This document shows positions 1,433 through 60,053 of a DNA stretch of 64,000 nucleotides, one piece after another; positions within the stretch are counted from its first letter, which is position 1, and each line of letters begins with the position of its first letter. This stretch comes from a virus. The notes beneath the pieces were generated by a model that was not told where the DNA came from, did not search any database, and worked only from the letters and a program-made list of their open reading frames with translations. The stretch is taken from positions 32,657 through 96,656 of the IMG/VR virus record IMGVR_UViG_3300028746_000014. The stretch is one strand, 5' to 3'. A program made the translations under genes and the position numbers.

Positions 1433-1749
1433 TGTCAAAGCCCAAGATTTACGAACTCTCGAAAGAACAGAACGACGCGATGGGCAGTCTTGCTAACGGG
1501 AAGAGTCCGATCAAGATTGCCGTCGAGCCTAACCCTGAGGATGACCAAGAGACAAAAGATCGCTTGACAAAAGTACTCGGACAGTGCGACGATCTAGTCA
1601 AGCTTGGATTCATCAAAGACATCACGAACAAGTACGCAGAGGACGTAGCGATATCGAAGCTCAAGACTGGGCGCGGCATCAAGATGTTCCTCATCACCGA
1701 TGTGGGCTACGATATGTTTCACGGCCCTAAGAACCCCACGATCCACTAA
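1432..1749 (+). CDS. Hypothetical protein, possible winged-helix
   Basis: 105 residues, GTG start overlapping the helicase stop by one base. No family recognised. The C-terminal half (VKLGFIKDIT ... GIKMFLITDVGYDMF) has the spacing of a small winged helix wing (strand, basic turn, then 'T..G'), so a DNA-binding accessory of the helicase is possible but unproven. Followed after 16 nt by the RNA ligase gene. Confidence 0.7.
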   Translation: MSKPKIYELSKEQNDAMGSLANGKSPIKIAVEPNPEDDQETKDRLTKVLGQCDDLVKLGFIKDITNKYAEDVAISKLKTGRGIKMFLITDVGYDMFHGPKNPTIH

Positions 1750-1765
1750 CCTGCAAAGGACGCCC

Positions 1766-3046
1766 ATGATTACGAACCAGTCTGACCTCGACGCCGTACT
1801 TGGAGAAGGTGCATCCAATACCATTCTCGGGTACAACACTATCCTTGACCGCCGCGACATCCCCGAGCCGAAGAAGGCCAACCATCAGGCCAAGATCGTG
1901 AAGATCGAAGCCCTCCTGCCCCACACCAATGCCGACTCCCTCTCCCTCGTTCAGATCGATGGCTTCCAAGTCGTCGTGCGTAAGGGTCAGTTCCATCCGG
2001 GTGATCTGGGCGTCTACATCCAGCCAGACTCCATCGTGCCCCAAACCGAGGCGTTCAAGTTCATCTGGGAAGCGTACGTCGGCCTCGACGGTACGGTGCC
2101 TGAGAACAGACGGCGTATCACGGTACGCAAGTTCCGCAAGGAGTGGAGCGAAGGTCTCTTGCTTCCTCTCACTGACTTCACTGAGCTGACGGACGGCGCG
2201 ACCGGCGCGGTCGATCCTTTCTGGAACGCACCGGGTCTGGACATCTCCGACATCATCGGTGTGACACACTACGATCCCGATGTCGTCGAGAACACACAGG
2301 GAGCCAAGGCGTCGAGTGCCAACTCACCGCGCCGAAAGTTCCGGTACCCACGTACTCTCCGTGGCTGGTTCCATCTCATCAAGCGTATCATCGCTGGGCG
2401 CTCGTTGCGTGAGACGACCAAAGACGTGTCGTTCAGCATCCCCGTCTTCGACGTGGAGGGCTTCAAGAACTACCCGAACACGTTCGAGGAGAACGAGCAG
2501 GTAGTTGTTACTGAGAAGGTCCACGGATCGAATGCGCGGTTCATCGCCATCGATGGTGAAATCTTCGTGGGTTCCCGTAACCAGTGGAAGGCCGACAACG
2601 GTTCGACCGTCTGGCACAAGGTTCTCAAACAGAACGAAGACCTGACGCGCTGGCTGCTTGAGCACCCCGGCCATGCAATCTACGGAGAGGTGACACCTAC
2701 CCAGAAGAACTTCCCGTACGGGCCGAAGGACGATGCTGTGGAGGGTGAGGTTCGGTTCTTTGCCTTCGACATCCTGACCCCGCAACGCGAGTGGATGGAC
2801 TACGGTTCCTTTAGCTTCTCTCTGCTGTCGTACCCCGGCATCGAGATGGCACCCCTCCTGTACCTTGGGCCGTACAACAAAGACAAGATCATGACGCTGG
2901 TGGATGGACCTTCATGGGTCTACCGTGCTAACCACATCCGCGAGGGTGTCGTCATCAAGGCCACCAAGGAGCGCACGGTTCGAGGACTGGGCCGAGCGAT
3001 GCTAAAAATCGTGTCGAACACTTTCTTAGAGGGTGACTCTAAGTAA
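1766..3046 (+). CDS. RNA ligase, Rnl5-like (OB fold + nucleotidyltransferase)
   Basis: 426 residues. ATP-dependent RNA ligase that would seal 3'-OH/5'-phosphate breaks through a lysyl-AMP intermediate. Motif I EKVHGSN gives the nucleotidyl lysine K251; motif III-like GEVTP at 307, IIIa FFAFDIL at 331-337, motif IV REGVVIKA at 392-399, motif V LKIVS at 413-417. The N-terminal ~100 residues look like an OB-fold domain, the order seen in Deinococcus RNA ligase (Rnl5 class) rather than T4 Rnl1/Rnl2. Start ATG 1766 follows an AAAGGA ribosome site; an in-frame ATG at 1700 lies inside the upstream gene and is rejected. Next downstream is a hairpin and tRNA-Trp, fitting a role in tRNA repair or processing (inference). 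Confidence 0.93.
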   Translation: MITNQSDLDAVLGEGASNTILGYNTILDRRDIPEPKKANHQAKIVKIEALLPHTNADSLSLVQIDGFQVVVRKGQFHPGDLGVYIQPDSIVPQTEAFKFIWEAYVGLDGTVPENRRRITVRKFRKEWSEGLLLPLTDFTELTDGATGAVDPFWNAPGLDISDIIGVTHYDPDVVENTQGAKASSANSPRRKFRYPRTLRGWFHLIKRIIAGRSLRETTKDVSFSIPVFDVEGFKNYPNTFEENEQVVVTEKVHGSNARFIAIDGEIFVGSRNQWKADNGSTVWHKVLKQNEDLTRWLLEHPGHAIYGEVTPTQKNFPYGPKDDAVEGEVRFFAFDILTPQREWMDYGSFSFSLLSYPGIEMAPLLYLGPYNKDKIMTLVDGPSWVYRANHIREGVVIKATKERTVRGLGRAMLKIVSNTFLEGDSK

Positions 3047-4919: not shown

Positions 4920-6944
4920 GTGAAGATACCGGAAGCGTTCACTGGCTCACAGGCGATGCAGCTTGTGGTCAGTCAGGGTTGGAAGTACAGAGAAGTATCT
5001 AGTCCCAAGATCGAAATCGAGAGATGCCCGTATTGCAAGAAGGACGGGTTCCATTTAGGCATGGAGATTCATGGGGCCGGGAGTGGGCAGACAAACAGGG
5101 ACGGTCTGCATGGGTGCGTACACTGTGGCAAGGGTGGTAACCTTTACACACTGAAGCAGCATTTAGGAATCGTACAGGCGAACATCGAGAGCCGCAGGGA
5201 CTCGGGTAGTTCTGGGGAGAATAAGAAGCAAGAGGAGCTGCCGGATACGGAAGCGTGCCACGAAGCACTGCTGGCCGACGAAGCTGCTCTGGACTATCTG
5301 GTCAACGGTCGTGGCTTCTCGATGGACGTTATCGGGAAGATGAAGCTGGGCCTTGTGGAGAAGAGGTTCTTCCGAGGTGTAGGTGAAGTGCGGGCGCTCG
5401 TGTACCCGTACATGGTCAACGGCAACACAGTGTTCTGCCACTATCGAACGCTGCCGACGATGCCACTGTCTGAGAACTTGGTACCCAAGGCGTTCAGTTC
5501 GCCAACAGGATGGCCGGTTCCGTTGTACAATGGTGAAATCCTCAACGATCAGAATCTCACTGAGGCGACGTTCGTAGAGGGTGAGCCGGACGTAATCTGC
5601 GCGATTGACCACGGCGTAAAGAACATCTGCGGCGTGCCGGGTGCAAACTTCAAGAAGGCCGAGTGGATCGATTCCCTCGACAGACTGGACAAGGTTTATG
5701 TCTGCTACGACAAAGATGCGGTGGGCCAGAAGGCTGCGCAGGAACTCGCTAATCGCATTGGAATCGAGAAGTGCTGGAAGATTATTCTGCCGGACTTTCA
5801 GGTTACGACCGAAAAGGGTGAGCAGCGAAATGGCAAAGACCTGAACGAGTGGTTCACACAAGGCGGAGGAACGCCTGAGGCATTCGAGAAGCTGAAGGAA
5901 GAAGCTCAGCTCTTCGACGTGGCCGGTGTAGCGTCCTCTAAAGACTCCATGCAGGAGTTCTACGACGAACTTGAGGGGAAGACAACATTAGAGCCAAAGT
6001 ACAAGACGCAATGGCCATCGCTGAACAAGCTGGTAGGGTTCGAAGATGGGGACGTGATCGATATCCTAGCACCGGAGAAGATCGGAAAGACTACGTTCGC
6101 CTTGAATCTGATGGACCACATGGTTTCAGCATACGGCGAGGACGGGGTTTTTATCTGCTTGGAGATGACTCGCGCTCGTATGGCACGCAAGTGGGTCTCT
6201 TATCTTGGGCAGGTAGCTGACAACATTCCGAAGTCGGTGGAAGAGGGTGAAGCTCTCAAGGCCGCCTTCATGGAAGCGAGGTCAACTGTACAGGCTATCA
6301 CAGCAGCACGTGAGGGTGATCTGTACTTCTGCTATCCCAAGTACAAGTCGGTCGAGGACATCTACGGTCTGATCCGTGACGTGATCCGCCGCTATGGTGC
6401 GAAGTGGATTTGTATCGACAACATTCATCGTCTGGCAGACTCAACGCCCTACGACAACAGAACGCAGCACCTCTCGCAGATATCGAAGATCACGAGTCAG
6501 ATCGCCAAGGACTACGGTGTGAAGCTGGTACGCATTCTCCAGCCGAACCGCATCAAGGCCGGGGCAATCGTCTCATCGGATAACACGGATGGTTCGTCTC
6601 AGATCGCAAAGGACTGCGACTGCACGATCACCCTTCACCGTACGAAGCTGGGAGAGCTTAGTGCAGACGACTTCGAGAAGATCGGATATGTGGAACAGGA
6701 AGCTGCCTTCGGTGAGGATGTTCTTACTGGCGTGCCTCTATCACGCTATTCGAGTGGCGGCTACTGTACGCTTCACGTCAACGGGGAGACCAGTACGTTT
6801 ATGGAGAAGAACGAGGGCCAGATCGCAAAGATGAAGGCTGACTCCAACAAGAACGTGGGTCACGAAAACCAGTTGGCTAATCTGGGCATCGTCCTCAAGA
6901 AGGACTATACCGGCGAAGTACCGATGGGAGATGTGGTCTTCTAA
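4920..6944 (+). CDS. T7 gp4-like primase-helicase
   Basis: 674 residues, GTG start with AGGAG upstream. Bifunctional replication protein: makes primers and unwinds DNA at the fork as a ring. Zinc ribbon CPYC (36-39) and CVHC (66-69); TOPRIM-like primase with FVEGEPD (E220) and CYDKDAVG (D264/D266), GKDLNEW at 305; helicase domain with Walker A APEKIGKTT at 384-392 (first glycine replaced by A), CLEMTRARM (H1a), WICIDNIH (Walker B, about residue 500) and DGSSQIAKDCD. Length matches the T7/twinkle family. Partner polymerase is probably the family A enzyme at 56183-58879. Overlaps endonuclease VII by one base. Confidence 0.95.
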   Translation: MKIPEAFTGSQAMQLVVSQGWKYREVSSPKIEIERCPYCKKDGFHLGMEIHGAGSGQTNRDGLHGCVHCGKGGNLYTLKQHLGIVQANIESRRDSGSSGENKKQEELPDTEACHEALLADEAALDYLVNGRGFSMDVIGKMKLGLVEKRFFRGVGEVRALVYPYMVNGNTVFCHYRTLPTMPLSENLVPKAFSSPTGWPVPLYNGEILNDQNLTEATFVEGEPDVICAIDHGVKNICGVPGANFKKAEWIDSLDRLDKVYVCYDKDAVGQKAAQELANRIGIEKCWKIILPDFQVTTEKGEQRNGKDLNEWFTQGGGTPEAFEKLKEEAQLFDVAGVASSKDSMQEFYDELEGKTTLEPKYKTQWPSLNKLVGFEDGDVIDILAPEKIGKTTFALNLMDHMVSAYGEDGVFICLEMTRARMARKWVSYLGQVADNIPKSVEEGEALKAAFMEARSTVQAITAAREGDLYFCYPKYKSVEDIYGLIRDVIRRYGAKWICIDNIHRLADSTPYDNRTQHLSQISKITSQIAKDYGVKLVRILQPNRIKAGAIVSSDNTDGSSQIAKDCDCTITLHRTKLGELSADDFEKIGYVEQEAAFGEDVLTGVPLSRYSSGGYCTLHVNGETSTFMEKNEGQIAKMKADSNKNVGHENQLANLGIVLKKDYTGEVPMGDVVF

Positions 6945-7381
6945 TGAAAGCGTACACTGCCCGAGAGAGGGCGAAGGATACCTACCTCCAGAAGCACTAC
7001 TGCATCACTCTGGCAGAGTACAAACGAATCTGGAATCATCAGGGCGGGAAGTGTGCCATGTGCCGCCGCCCTGAATCAGACTTCAGCAAGGGCTTCGCGG
7101 TCGATCACGATCACAAGACCGGGTTGATCCGAGGACTCCTATGCTGGTTGTGCAACAAGAAGCTGGGCAAGTTCCAAGACGATGATGTGTTGGTTCGCTC
7201 CGCTGCTGAGTATGTGACATCGCCACCGGCCACCGCCGTACTGGGTACGCCAAGGCATAGTCATCCGGGCCGAGTAGGATCGGATAAACGAAACAAGCTG
7301 TGTGGGATTACACCCCGCAAAAAGAAGACGAAAGGACGTAGTGGCAGCAAGGGACGAGCGACCAAAGCAGTCAGGAATTGA
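6944..7381 (+). CDS. Recombination endonuclease VII
   Basis: 145 residues. Holliday-junction/branched-DNA resolvase of the T4 gp49 family (PF02945): zinc ligands KCAMC (about 36-40) and LLCWLCNKKLG, catalytic VDHDHKTGLIRG between them. Expected to trim branched replicative DNA before packaging. The last 45 residues are very basic and probably bind DNA. ATG overlaps the helicase stop (TAATG); its 3' end overlaps the next gene by 41 nt. Confidence 0.93.
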   Translation: MKAYTARERAKDTYLQKHYCITLAEYKRIWNHQGGKCAMCRRPESDFSKGFAVDHDHKTGLIRGLLCWLCNKKLGKFQDDDVLVRSAAEYVTSPPATAVLGTPRHSHPGRVGSDKRNKLCGITPRKKKTKGRSGSKGRATKAVRN

Positions 7382-51581: not shown

Positions 51582-51666
51582 TGGTACTCCATGAGGGCGT
51601 ATAACCCACACGCCCGAAGGCACCGGCTTCTTAGACCGGCGCGTCTGCCAATTCCGCCAACGGAGC
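51582..51666 (-). tRNA. tRNA-Leu (AAG), atypical T-arm
   Basis: 85 nt with CCA. Acceptor GCTCCGT/ATGGAGT (two G-T pairs), A73, D-stem GCG/CGC with GGCAGA loop, anticodon stem CCGGT/GCCGG, loop CTAAGAA giving anticodon AAG, and a class II variable arm GCC-TTCG-GGC. T-stem GTGGG/CCCTC has a T-T mismatch and loop TTATACG lacks C56, so it may be poorly functional or specialised. Confidence 0.75.
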
Positions 51667-53128: not shown

Positions 53129-53526
53129 TATTCACCGGCCTTTTTAGAAGGGGCAAGCAGTGCTTCGAAGACGGTTCGGATATTCTCCGAAGCCTCAGCC
53201 TCGATCTTGGTAGGTGGCGGAAGTGTCTCTGTGTCTTCGGCGTCTAACCATTGAATGACTTTAGGGTTGCCGAACTGGGTCAACAGGATGCTGTAGAGCA
53301 ATTCCTTGTCCTTGGCCTCTTGTTCGGTCATCGGCACTGCTTTGCCGTTCTTGTTTCCAATTGAGAAGTGCTTGCCCAGCAATGCGGCCAGCAGGCGGCG
53401 GTTACCGCTCAGGCGCTCATCCTTGATGATCGTCGCCAGAACAGTGTTATAGTCCCTGATCCTGACCAGCTTCGGCTGCTTCAGGGCCACTTCGTTTCGT
53501 TTTAGAACTTCGTTTTTCTTCGACAT
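53128..53526 (-). CDS. Hypothetical protein
   Basis: 132 residues. Basic N-terminus (MSKKNEVLKRNEVALKQPKLVRIRDY), helical body, acidic linker and Lys-rich end. Overlaps the JAMM gene by 80 nt in another frame. Confidence 0.65.
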   Translation of the reverse strand: MSKKNEVLKRNEVALKQPKLVRIRDYNTVLATIIKDERLSGNRRLLAALLGKHFSIGNKNGKAVPMTEQEAKDKELLYSILLTQFGNPKVIQWLDAEDTETLPPPTKIEAEASENIRTVFEALLAPSKKAGE

Positions 53527-53935
53527 AGATCACATCACAGGGAAGTGAGCTGTCCATGACCCAGAAGCGTGTCCGCGTCTTGCCCTTGTTGACGGAAGTG
53601 ATCCCGCACAACGGGTGCATATCGCGCACACATCCTTCATAGTCAACCGGAGACATCACCGCGTCCCATTGTGGGTGCGTGTGTATGTAACCAATGACGC
53701 TCTTCCCGCGCTCCTCAGCACGTTCTCTAACTTTGTTATACTCCGTGACGTACCACGAGACCTGCTGCTCTGTCTGCGTGTGGTAATCCTTGGTGTACTC
53801 GAAGCTATCAATGACAATCAAGTCTTTGGCTTTCACCTCACCAACGAGGTAGGCCATGATCTCTTTGTCGGACTTACGAGCCAGCTTGCGGAAATAATCG
53901 AGCTGGCTCTTTTTGAGTTTTACTCGATTCGACAT
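53447..53935 (-). CDS. JAMM/MPN-domain metalloprotease
   Basis: 162 residues from ATG 53935 (GTG 53971 possible; neither has a strong ribosome site). Exact JAMM motif H-x-H-x7-S-x2-D: H85, H87, S95, D98 in GYIHTHPQWDAVMSPVD, with E33 (LVGEVKAK) as candidate catalytic acid. Zinc isopeptidase/protease fold. In phages such domains occur in tail assembly (lambda gpK) and could also remove ubiquitin-like modifiers used by bacterial defences; context does not decide. Confidence 0.87.
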   Translation of the reverse strand: MSNRVKLKKSQLDYFRKLARKSDKEIMAYLVGEVKAKDLIVIDSFEYTKDYHTQTEQQVSWYVTEYNKVRERAEERGKSVIGYIHTHPQWDAVMSPVDYEGCVRDMHPLCGITSVNKGKTRTRFWVMDSSLPCDVIYVEEKRSSKTKRSGPEAAEAGQDQGL

Positions 53936-54021
53936 CGCGTTGTTGGCCCCTAGAAAGGTACCGGCATTCACCGGTATGGTAGCTCTATTAGGCGTCCCGT
54001 AGGACGACGGCTACGCTAATA

Positions 54022-54240: not shown

Positions 54241-54364
54241 TGGCTCACGGGGCTGGGATCGAACCAGCGACCGTTCGGTTACTTTTCGAGATTCCAGAGT
54301 TGCACTGGAGCGTGGCGTTCCACATCTCGCACAGCCGAATGCTCTACCGCTGAGCTACCCGCAA
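54241..54364 (-). tRNA. tRNA-Asn (GTT) interrupted by 49-nt insertion
   Basis: 124 nt with CCA. All other arms are canonical: acceptor TTGCGGG/CCCGTGA with T1-A72, G73; D-stem GCTC/GAGC; anticodon stem TTCGG/CCGAA; T-arm GCTGG-TTCGATC-CCAGC. The anticodon loop reads CTGT, 49 extra nt, TAA. Removing them gives CTGTTAA, exactly the loop of E. coli tRNA-Asn, with anticodon GTT. The 3' TAA and 5' CTGT leave no other sensible junction for G73/T1-A72 identity (Thr GGT is the next option). Confidence 0.88.
54282..54330 (-). other. 49-nt three-way-junction insertion in tRNA-Asn anticodon
   Basis: Between tRNA positions 35 and 36. Minus strand order: G, CGAGAT, hairpin GTGG-AACG-CCAC, GC, hairpin TCCAG-TGCAACT-CTGGA, ATCTCG, AAAAG. 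CGAGAT/ATCTCG closes the element (6 bp), so all 15 pairs are Watson-Crick. With the tRNA anticodon stem it leaves a 5 x 8 internal loop at the two junctions. No group I or hammerhead core is present. Confidence 0.85.
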
Positions 54365-59036: not shown

Positions 59037-59348
59037 ATGGACAGTCTATGGGAGCGCGGCGAATATCTCCTGTTCAAGGATGTGGGGAAGGCCCGTAAAG
59101 GCGGCACTACCCACGTCTTTGACGTGATGTCTAAGACCGGCGCTGCACTGGGAATCATCAAGTGGTTCCCACACTGGCGGAAGTACACGTTCCACCCCGG
59201 ACCCGAAACAGTTTTCGATCCAAAGTGCTTGACAGAACTATCCGAGTACTGTACACTGAAAACAGTCGAACACAACGCAGGTAAGGGATACCCCAGAGAC
59301 TATAGAGGTTTCTGCAAACCGAAGGTTGACAAGACCGATCAAGTTTGA
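59037..59348 (+). CDS. Hypothetical protein
   Basis: 103 residues from ATG 59037; TTG 59025, overlapping the previous stop, is possible. Compact alpha/beta sequence rich in Gly, Trp and Lys (THVFDVMSKTGAALGIIKWFPHWRKY). No family recognised. Its 3' end contains the tmRNA promoter -35. Confidence 0.7.
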   Translation: MDSLWERGEYLLFKDVGKARKGGTTHVFDVMSKTGAALGIIKWFPHWRKYTFHPGPETVFDPKCLTELSEYCTLKTVEHNAGKGYPRDYRGFCKPKVDKTDQV

Positions 59349-59354
59349 TACAAT
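59326..59354 (+). promoter_or_regulatory. tmRNA promoter
   Basis: TTGACA (59326-59331), 17-nt spacer, TACAAT (59349-59354). Predicted start about 59361, immediately before the acceptor piece of the permuted tmRNA. Confidence 0.85.
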
Positions 59355-59360
59355 TCAAAA

Positions 59361-59700
59361 AGTTACGCATGGTATGAAGCTCCAAAGTCGGTAGACGGAC
59401 GCGAGTTCGACTCTCGCCATCTCCACCAAAACAATCTCGTAAGCGTACCGCATACGGGGATGTCACGGCTTCGACGGATACAGATAGAAGAGTGGACTGT
59501 GCAGGTGCCTAGCGACCTTGACTGCTGGAAAAAAAGAACTGTCACCGAAAGTGTCAGCCACAGCCGTGTCCGTTTCAGCGTTCGCAAGAGCGTTGTTGCA
59601 GCACAGCTACTTGCGGCCTAATAACCGCTGGGGCCTCTTGACGGGCCTAGCAACAGAAGGGGGAGCGATCCCCCAGTCTAAACATTTACGTGGGAAGGCT
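59361..59700 (+). ncRNA. ssrA: Circularly permuted (two-piece) tmRNA
   Basis: Ribosome-rescue RNA. Acceptor piece about 59361-59428: GGAC, then T-arm GCGAG-TTCGACT-CTCGC (59401-59417), CATCTCC (59418-59424), A, CCA (59426-59428). A 27-nt spacer (59429-59455) is followed by the coding piece from 59456: GGGGATG pairs fully with CATCTCC, including G3-U70, then CACGGCTTCGACGG, a pseudoknot-like GCAGGT/ACCT region and an A-rich stretch before the tag frame. Tag ends ...SVVAAQLLAA with tandem TAA TAA (59619-59624) followed by CC as in E. coli; resume codon near 59544. GGGGGA-GCGA-TCCCCC hairpin at 59659-59674. 3' end is approximate. Confidence 0.9.
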
Positions 59701-59774
59701 GACGAATGGATTTTCATGGGGTCGGTCGGCGGGTGATTGGGGTTGTCACTGGCGAGGGTTTATAAAGGAGATGT

Positions 59775-60053
59775 ATGTCTGGACAAGAGCAGTTGGTAAA
59801 AGGCGGCAAGAGTTCGTTTCCGTTCTTCTCTATTTTGACCTTGATTTTTGTCGTCGCTAAACTTGCTGGGTTCTTCCCGCATTCATGGTGGATTGTGTTC
59901 ATACCCCTGTGGGGACCGATATCGGTACTGGTGGCACTGTCGTTGCTGTTTATTCTGGCAGCGTTGATCTTCGCAATAGTGGGTTCCGTTATCGACGAGA
60001 TCGATAAGGTACGCAGCAAGAAAAAGAAAGACGACGGTAAATGGCTCTCCTGA
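59775..60053 (+). CDS. Small two-helix membrane protein
   Basis: 92 residues after AAAGGAG. Two hydrophobic helices (about 18-34 and 45-70), with WWIVFIPLWGP between, and a strongly basic C-terminus (KKKKDDGKW). Resembles the 'transmembrane Fragile-X-F' group seen in phages; role unknown. Confidence 0.75.
   Translation: MSGQEQLVKGGKSSFPFFSILTLIFVVAKLAGFFPHSWWIVFIPLWGPISVLVALSLLFILAALIFAIVGSVIDEIDKVRSKKKKDDGKWLS

Follow-up and report, generated by a model that had tools for sequence, protein, structure and literature searches.

Group I introns, which measure about 200 nt or more, carry a conserved catalytic core and splice themselves, and bulge-helix-bulge introns are marked at their junctions by two 3-nt bulges separated by a 4-bp helix. 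In ordinary tRNA maturation, the products of RNase P and RNase Z bear 3'-OH and 5'-phosphate ends, which are not the ends that RtcB needs. RNase Z, which leaves a 3'-OH, cuts after the discriminator or, for some bacterial enzymes, after CCA (PMC7479834), and an RCC motif matters for the cleavage of some RNase P model substrates (PMC12710915). RNA ligases of the T4 Rnl1 type join 3'-OH and 5'-phosphate ends in anticodon loops (PMC3400036). Here we analyze a phage tRNA-Asn(GUU) gene interrupted within its anticodon by 49 nt, and propose that these probably constitute a tRNA-like minihelix intron that is cut out by tRNA-end enzymes, the exons being ligated by an Rnl1-type ligase of the phage.

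An interrupted tRNA-Asn gene and the anatomy of its insert

The DNA analyzed here (the window, 64,000 nt in length) belongs to a 96,656-bp virus contig from a tailed phage, which encodes a family-A DNA polymerase, an SU10-like portal and a large terminase. The Rfam tRNA model RF00005 matches the window from 54364 to 54244 with 47.1 bits and an internal insertion, at a gene on which ARAGORN made no call; phage tRNA counts obtained with standard finders are therefore incomplete. The gene, its exon borders and the parts of its insert are the following:

54241 to 54364, minus strand (5' end at 54364): interrupted tRNA-Asn gene, including the encoded GCCA end (Rfam RF00005 match and sequence)
54331 to 54339, minus strand: end of the 5' exon, with anticodon stem TTCGG and loop CTGT, positions 27-35 (sequence; alignment with uninterrupted relatives)
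54282 to 54330, minus strand: 49-nt insert, a putative intron resembling a mini-tRNA, lying between U35 and U36 (an exact gap where alignment A3 sets it against uninterrupted syntenic tRNA-Asn genes; covariance model R1, E = 2e-12)
54324 to 54330, minus strand: acceptor-like 5' strand of the insert, GCGAGAT, G1 to U7 (covarying helix)
54310 to 54323, minus strand: variable region of the insert, GTGGAACGCCACGC, a lineage-specific hairpin (helix not conserved in relatives)
54293 to 54309, minus strand: T-arm of the insert, TCCAG-TGCAACT-CTGGA (covarying helix; canonical T-loops, e.g. TTCGATT, in relatives)
54286 to 54292, minus strand: acceptor-like 3' strand of the insert, ATCTCGA, with A72 facing G1 (covariation)
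54282 to 54285, minus strand: tail of the insert, AAAG, at the N73-C74-C75-A76 position (ACCA in other members)
54274 to 54281, minus strand: start of the 3' exon, with TAA (positions 36-38) and anticodon stem CCGAA (sequence; alignment with uninterrupted relatives)

The outer gene has the features of a tRNA-Asn: a cloverleaf whose acceptor (TTGCGGG/CCCGTGA, with U1-A72) is followed by G73 and an encoded CCA, and an anticodon stem (TTCGG/CCGAA) enclosing a loop made of CTGT, the 49 nt and TAA. Removal of the insert leaves a standard 7-nt anticodon loop with the correct anticodon, GUU. Shifted junctions that would give joined anticodons for Thr, His or Ile were ruled out by the alignment with empty sites, together with the Asn-type U1-A72 and G73.

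The insert itself is laid out as a mini-tRNA. A 7-nt acceptor strand begins exactly at the 5' junction and leads to a T-arm with its T-loop, and the insert ends exactly 16 nt past that loop, where the CCA of a tRNA would end. The two 7-nt acceptor strands and the 5-bp T-stem are directly stacked and covary, with 11 of these 12 positions paired in the window, where G1 and A72 are mismatched. The T-loop, of 7 nt with consensus UUCRANY, is canonical in most relatives and differs by one change in the window (UGCAACU), and the 3' CCA of a minihelix is absent from the window insert, which ends in AAAG, ACCA being present only in other members. The same elements reproduce the layout of an RNase P substrate (a stack of about 12 bp of acceptor and T-stem, U at -1 and G at +1), with 7+5 positions and the junction U35|G1.

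Three further features were observed in the window. A phage-encoded permuted tmRNA (RF04321, 71 bits) lies at 59333-59827, with tRNA-Ile and tRNA-Met genes just downstream; a tRNA-Leu at 51582-51666 has the anticodon AAG, A34 being unusual in bacteria; and a protein with a JAB/Mov34-type metalloprotease domain is encoded near the interrupted tRNA (53447-53971, minus strand).

Recurrence, covariation and uninterrupted counterparts

To survey other phages for similar inserts we relied on patterns, the first of which was loose (the ends of the anticodon stem with any 30-60 nt between them) and included chance hits among its matches. It retrieved three near-identical relatives as well as the records L011 and L039, which carry a different 51-nt insert at exactly the same site, and additional patterns extended the set to 14 separate lineages with an interrupted tRNA-Asn. 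Three cultured phages of Sinorhizobium (phiM12, phiM7 and phiM19) were added by a similarity search; their annotation lists the gene as 'tRNA-Thr' or as a pseudo 'tRNA-OTHER'. Agrobacterium phage Atu_ph07 carries an unannotated insert in tRNA-Asn, with A rather than G as its first nucleotide, and a second insert in tRNA-Lys. A scan of 84,980 prokaryote genomes with one Asn pattern gave 5 hits, resembling chance matches or ordinary tRNAs.

In 12 of the 14 lineages the distance from the end of the inner T-loop to the 3' junction is 16 nt, corresponding to a T-stem strand (5), an acceptor strand (7), the discriminator and three more nucleotides (the CCA end); in the other two it is 13 nt, ending at the discriminator. 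This spacing was not fixed by the search patterns that found these members, which left room for about 30 distances. As for CTGTG and TAA in the loop, most patterns already contained these letters, and they are no proof by themselves. On the 5' side, the acceptor strand starts at the junction itself, and the loop that matches TGCAACT of the window is a textbook T-loop in most relatives (TTCGATT, TTCGAAT, TTCAATT). Comparison shows that the insert keeps, in its predicted structure, the geometry of a tRNA, with its first nucleotide at the site where RNase P cuts a tRNA precursor and its last at the CCA position or, in some members, at the discriminator. Among members in which T-loop position 55 is U, most retain GG in the short stretch in the middle (e.g. 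AAAGGTAA), and most UGCAA members lack it; the window does have GG, but within its own hairpin. These few data would fit a possible refinement of the model, as if the contact made by G18-G19 of the D-loop had been kept.

Several neighboring observations were made at these loci. In L259 (1979-2045) a class-1 nested insert occupies a GUU-anticodon tRNA with a long variable arm, beside an ordinary nested tRNA-Asn. HNH endonuclease genes, which are possible homing partners, adjoin both the interrupted tRNA-Asn of phiM12 (L255, 3101-3538) and the uninterrupted tRNA-Asn of Synechococcus phage MA10 (L279, 853-1074).

The structure of the insert was assessed on an alignment (A2) of 11 independent lineages from which the window was excluded. 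In this alignment 94.3% of cells were paired, compared to 63.9% in shuffles (0/500) and 23-50% when the partners were slid; both sides had changed in 13 of the 16 pairs, and double-changed cells numbered 60 vs 17.8. A covariance model built from A2 (R1), and hence from other phages only, matched the window insert with 56.9 bits (E = 2e-12), and when run on 100 other phage loci (0.97 Mb) it returned 12 hits at E < 0.1, 11 of which were known carriers. Folding of the single sequence gave a z-score of -0.69 on the tRNA strand and was therefore rejected as proof of structure; it is the comparative evidence that supports the predicted fold.

A preliminary description, made from this sequence, had reported intact tRNA arms, 49 nt at 35/36, 15 possible pairs that are all Watson-Crick (6+4+5) and a loop restored by removal of the insert, and all of these readings hold, on the minus strand. 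Its three-way-junction fold stands in part: of the three helices, only the closing stem (P1) and the hairpin with TGCAACT (P3) are conserved, and both covary, the GTGG/CCAC hairpin being specific to the lineage of the window. Judged by these alignments, the insert is a tRNA-like minihelix nested in a tRNA and not an arbitrary three-way junction. The same observations bear on a reading of the 49 nt as a small self-splicing or self-cleaving ribozyme, which we regard as extremely unlikely. The RNA is compactly folded with conserved loop nucleotides, and its UGCAA loop presumably resembles those of some small ribozymes, but no ribozyme or group I family is detected at Rfam curated thresholds, and what is conserved corresponds exactly to the elements of tRNA ends, with a T-loop in most members.

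Four relatives (L429, L433, L443 and L449) have an uninterrupted tRNA-Asn(GUU) and the same order of genes (Asn, Ala, Pro and Leu if these occur, and terminase), and a fifth (L448) has Asn alone; these relatives share the terminase, with about 60-74% identity. Their alignment with the window (A3) places a 49-nt gap exactly between U35 and U36. The syntenic uninterrupted genes therefore define the splice sites and the joined product to the nucleotide, and the exactness of the empty sites implies that the element was gained or lost cleanly. Ochrobactrum phage ORM_20 likewise provides the uninterrupted counterpart for phiM12, and a wastewater phage record (L456) that for a tRNA-Glu case (L310), at 36/37. 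Comparison of the aligned genes shows that the predicted intron was gained in, or lost from, an intact syntenic tRNA-Asn.

Inserts in other isoacceptors were sought with two later patterns requiring tRNA geometry, one of which imposed ACCA while the other returned ACCA unimposed. They were found in tRNAs for Lys (L280, L286, L288, L394, L204), Arg (L288), Pro (L291), Glu (L381, L310), Gln (L321), Leu (L396) and Ile (L282), most of the inserts combining an acceptor of 7 perfect base pairs with an ACCA encoded precisely at the junction (L280, L288, L286, L291 and others). Insert length is 43-64 nt in most members, and the clear insertion positions are confined to 34/35, 35/36 and 36/37. In Lys members without CCA (the second copies of L272 and Atu_ph07, and L459), the distance from T-loop to junction, counted from the sequences, is 15. 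The Rfam tRNA model called the inner RNA of L291 a tRNA (6959-7022, 36 bits), and the joined anticodons match distant identity features where these were checked (Pro UGG with C1-G72 in L291; Gln UUG with U1-A72 and G73 in L321). Matches in L281, L283, L285, L289 and others were set aside as chance matches in apparent coding DNA, and those in L293 and L304 as normal tRNAs followed by another T-arm. On the strength of these sequence comparisons, the 49-nt insert almost certainly belongs to a family of nested tRNA-like introns in phages.

Complete, normal-looking tRNA-Ile genes (GAU, with CCA) lie inside the anticodon loop of another tRNA in L196 (at 7334) and L312 (at 4994), with outer loops of 9-10 nt, and perhaps represent an early stage of nested introns. 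Such whole inner genes, and an outer tRNA in L196 that looks partly decayed, would also suit a reading in which the functional product is the inner mini-tRNA, acting for instance as a tRNA fragment or decoy, and the outer tRNA-Asn only carries it; this is very improbable given that most inner RNAs lack an anticodon arm and that the outer tRNAs are well preserved.

Two other arrangements were noted in the course of these searches. A free-standing minihelix tRNA, composed of a 7-bp acceptor, a T-arm, CCA and a short linker and devoid of D and anticodon arms, directly follows a tRNA-Lys in L318 (minus strand, about 7253-7370). Interrupted phage tRNAs of another class, which is unrelated to the first and outnumbers it, carry an insert of 38-58 nt within or beside the 5' strand of the anticodon stem; this insert consists of a hairpin and then a conserved ACHGCAAY and is seen in many isoacceptors. 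The class occurs in L073 (4648 and 4861), L078, L094, L097, L098, L111, L112, L126, L149, L172 and others, as well as in L288 (minus strand, near 5824 and 5966), and is possibly another small intron class.

Predicted removal of the insert and sealing of the exons

Across the 14 lineages, 100% of cells of the outer anticodon stem are paired, with double changes at 5 of 5 pairs, and the outer tRNA is therefore under selection as a whole. This bears on the reading that the insert is never removed, leaving a permanently interrupted tRNA as a decoy, as a molecule proof against anticodon nucleases or as a pseudogene. L011 does encode a second, uninterrupted GUU tRNA, and the interrupted gene of phiM12 is annotated as a pseudo tRNA, but, besides the preserved stem, the legal 7-nt loop created by joining, the fit of the anticodon to distant identity features and the limited set of clear insertion sites render this reading distinctly improbable. 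Removal of the insert, as predicted from these comparisons, would very probably yield a working tRNA-Asn.

The preliminary description had offered either a permanently disguised tRNA or a new minimal intron class removed by a nuclease and the phage RNA ligase. The former is worse supported, and less likely, than the latter, which gains from the recurrence of the insert, its covariation, the exact empty sites and the presence of phage ATP-dependent RNA ligases, but which had missed the tRNA-like nature of the element. That description had also set uninterrupted relatives with a random or non-pairing insertion against its proposals; the relatives do carry an unbroken tRNA-Asn at this site, but the insertion itself forms pairs and is not random. 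Recognition of the insert as a tRNA-like minihelix bearing a T-arm shifts the likely choice from an anticodon nuclease to the tRNA-end enzymes.

In the mechanism that we propose, host RNase P would recognize the stack of inner acceptor and T-arm and cut at U35|G1, leaving a 3'-OH on the 5' exon; an RNase Z-type tRNA 3'-end endonuclease would cut past the inner tail, leaving a 5'-phosphate on U36; and the phage would supply an ATP-dependent, T4 Rnl1-like RNA ligase to seal the anticodon loop, the two halves being kept together by the body of the tRNA. For the 5' cut, the geometry of the junction makes us lean slightly towards RNase P. The assignment of the 3' cut to an RNase Z-like enzyme is more tentative. 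The AAAG tail and the G1-A72 mismatch are common to the window-type subgroup, and the window-type insert is on paper a weak RNase P substrate, because its tail is not RCCA and its G1 faces A72.

These two features, not ideal for RNase P, favor an intron removed by a different nuclease, either one encoded by the phage or a PrrC-like anticodon nuclease of the host that cuts the loop. The ends would then be repaired and joined by Rnl1, and the T-arm would serve only in folding or docking; repair of anticodon-loop breaks by phage Pnkp and Rnl1 is established in T4 (PMC3400036). We nonetheless consider this unlikely, because both ends of the insert coincide at nucleotide resolution with tRNA-end positions, a geometry that an unrelated nuclease would not need, and encoded ACCA ends and whole inner tRNAs are found elsewhere.

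With regard to sealing, the window encodes one candidate enzyme:

1700 to 3046, plus strand: phage RNA ligase of PHA02142 type (Pfam RNA_ligase PF09414, phrog_968), candidate sealing enzyme

Outside the window, the same genome encodes an Rnl1-type ligase of 400 aa with the motif KLDG (G000:28120-29322). Among carrier records of 170 kb or more, 9 of 10 encode Rnl1 (PF09511), vs 4 of 12 tRNA-bearing controls (p = 0.011, uncorrected for relatedness and with a size cut chosen post hoc), and the enrichment at 80 kb or more has p = 0.07. It is present in all three cultured carriers searched and absent from the uninterrupted ORM_20, and some fragmentary carrier records are without it. RNA ligases of any kind showed no significant enrichment (14/25 vs 14/36, p = 0.20), and the L011 family and some other carriers have no Pfam-detectable RNA ligase in incomplete records of 80-131 kb. 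RtcB was rejected as the sealing enzyme, being absent from 39 of 39 carrier records. Ligation by an Rnl1-type enzyme is the probable means by which the tRNA would be sealed. Whether the family as a whole amounts to an unrecognized class of phage tRNA introns, in which a degenerate nested tRNA is excised by ordinary tRNA-end enzymes and rejoined by a phage RNA ligase, seems to us evenly balanced.

Implications and comparison with known systems

If this reading is true, bacteria would have an enzymatic, protein-dependent route of tRNA splicing with an intron built from a tRNA, and Rnl1-type phage RNA ligases would have a normal housekeeping rather than an emergency job. Insertion of a tRNA into a tRNA, followed by decay, would then also offer a plausible model for the origin of protein-spliced tRNA introns. 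The nested-intron reading can be tested in the cultured carriers of Sinorhizobium (phiM12, phiM7) and Agrobacterium (Atu_ph07). No description of nested tRNAs or of small phage tRNA introns of this kind was found in the open-access literature, and the insert family suggests a type of tRNA intron not described before, in a comparison with that literature only.

Like the insert, group I introns interrupt tRNA anticodon loops in bacteria and phages and vary in presence or absence between relatives. They differ from the insert family in size, since its members measure 43-64 nt in most cases, and in its tRNA-like fold, and the window insert has no group I match in Rfam. The introns of archaeal and eukaryotic tRNAs resemble it in being short, in lying in the anticodon loop and in needing protein cutting and ligation. 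In contrast, they are found at 37/38 rather than at 35/36 as in the window, the predicted ends of the insert junctions are 3'-OH and 5'-phosphate, and the carriers are without RtcB. A bulge-helix-bulge is likewise absent from the window junctions, where CUGUG faces AAAAGUAA with no intervening 4-bp helix.

The repair of PrrC damage by T4 Pnkp and Rnl1 involves the same ligase family at the same place of the tRNA, with the anticodon loop held by the tRNA body; it mends damage to an intact tRNA, whereas in the window a genetically encoded insert must first be removed. Minihelix substrates, in which an acceptor stem and T-arm suffice for cutting by RNase P, and artificial constructs in which embedded tRNAs release a neighboring RNA, share with the insert the use of tRNA ends for cleavage, but these are laboratory systems, whereas the phage insert is natural and lies inside another tRNA, the outer pieces of which need to be rejoined. 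By analogy, the proposed scheme would thus resemble T4 tRNA repair at its ligation step and an RNase P minihelix at its cutting step.
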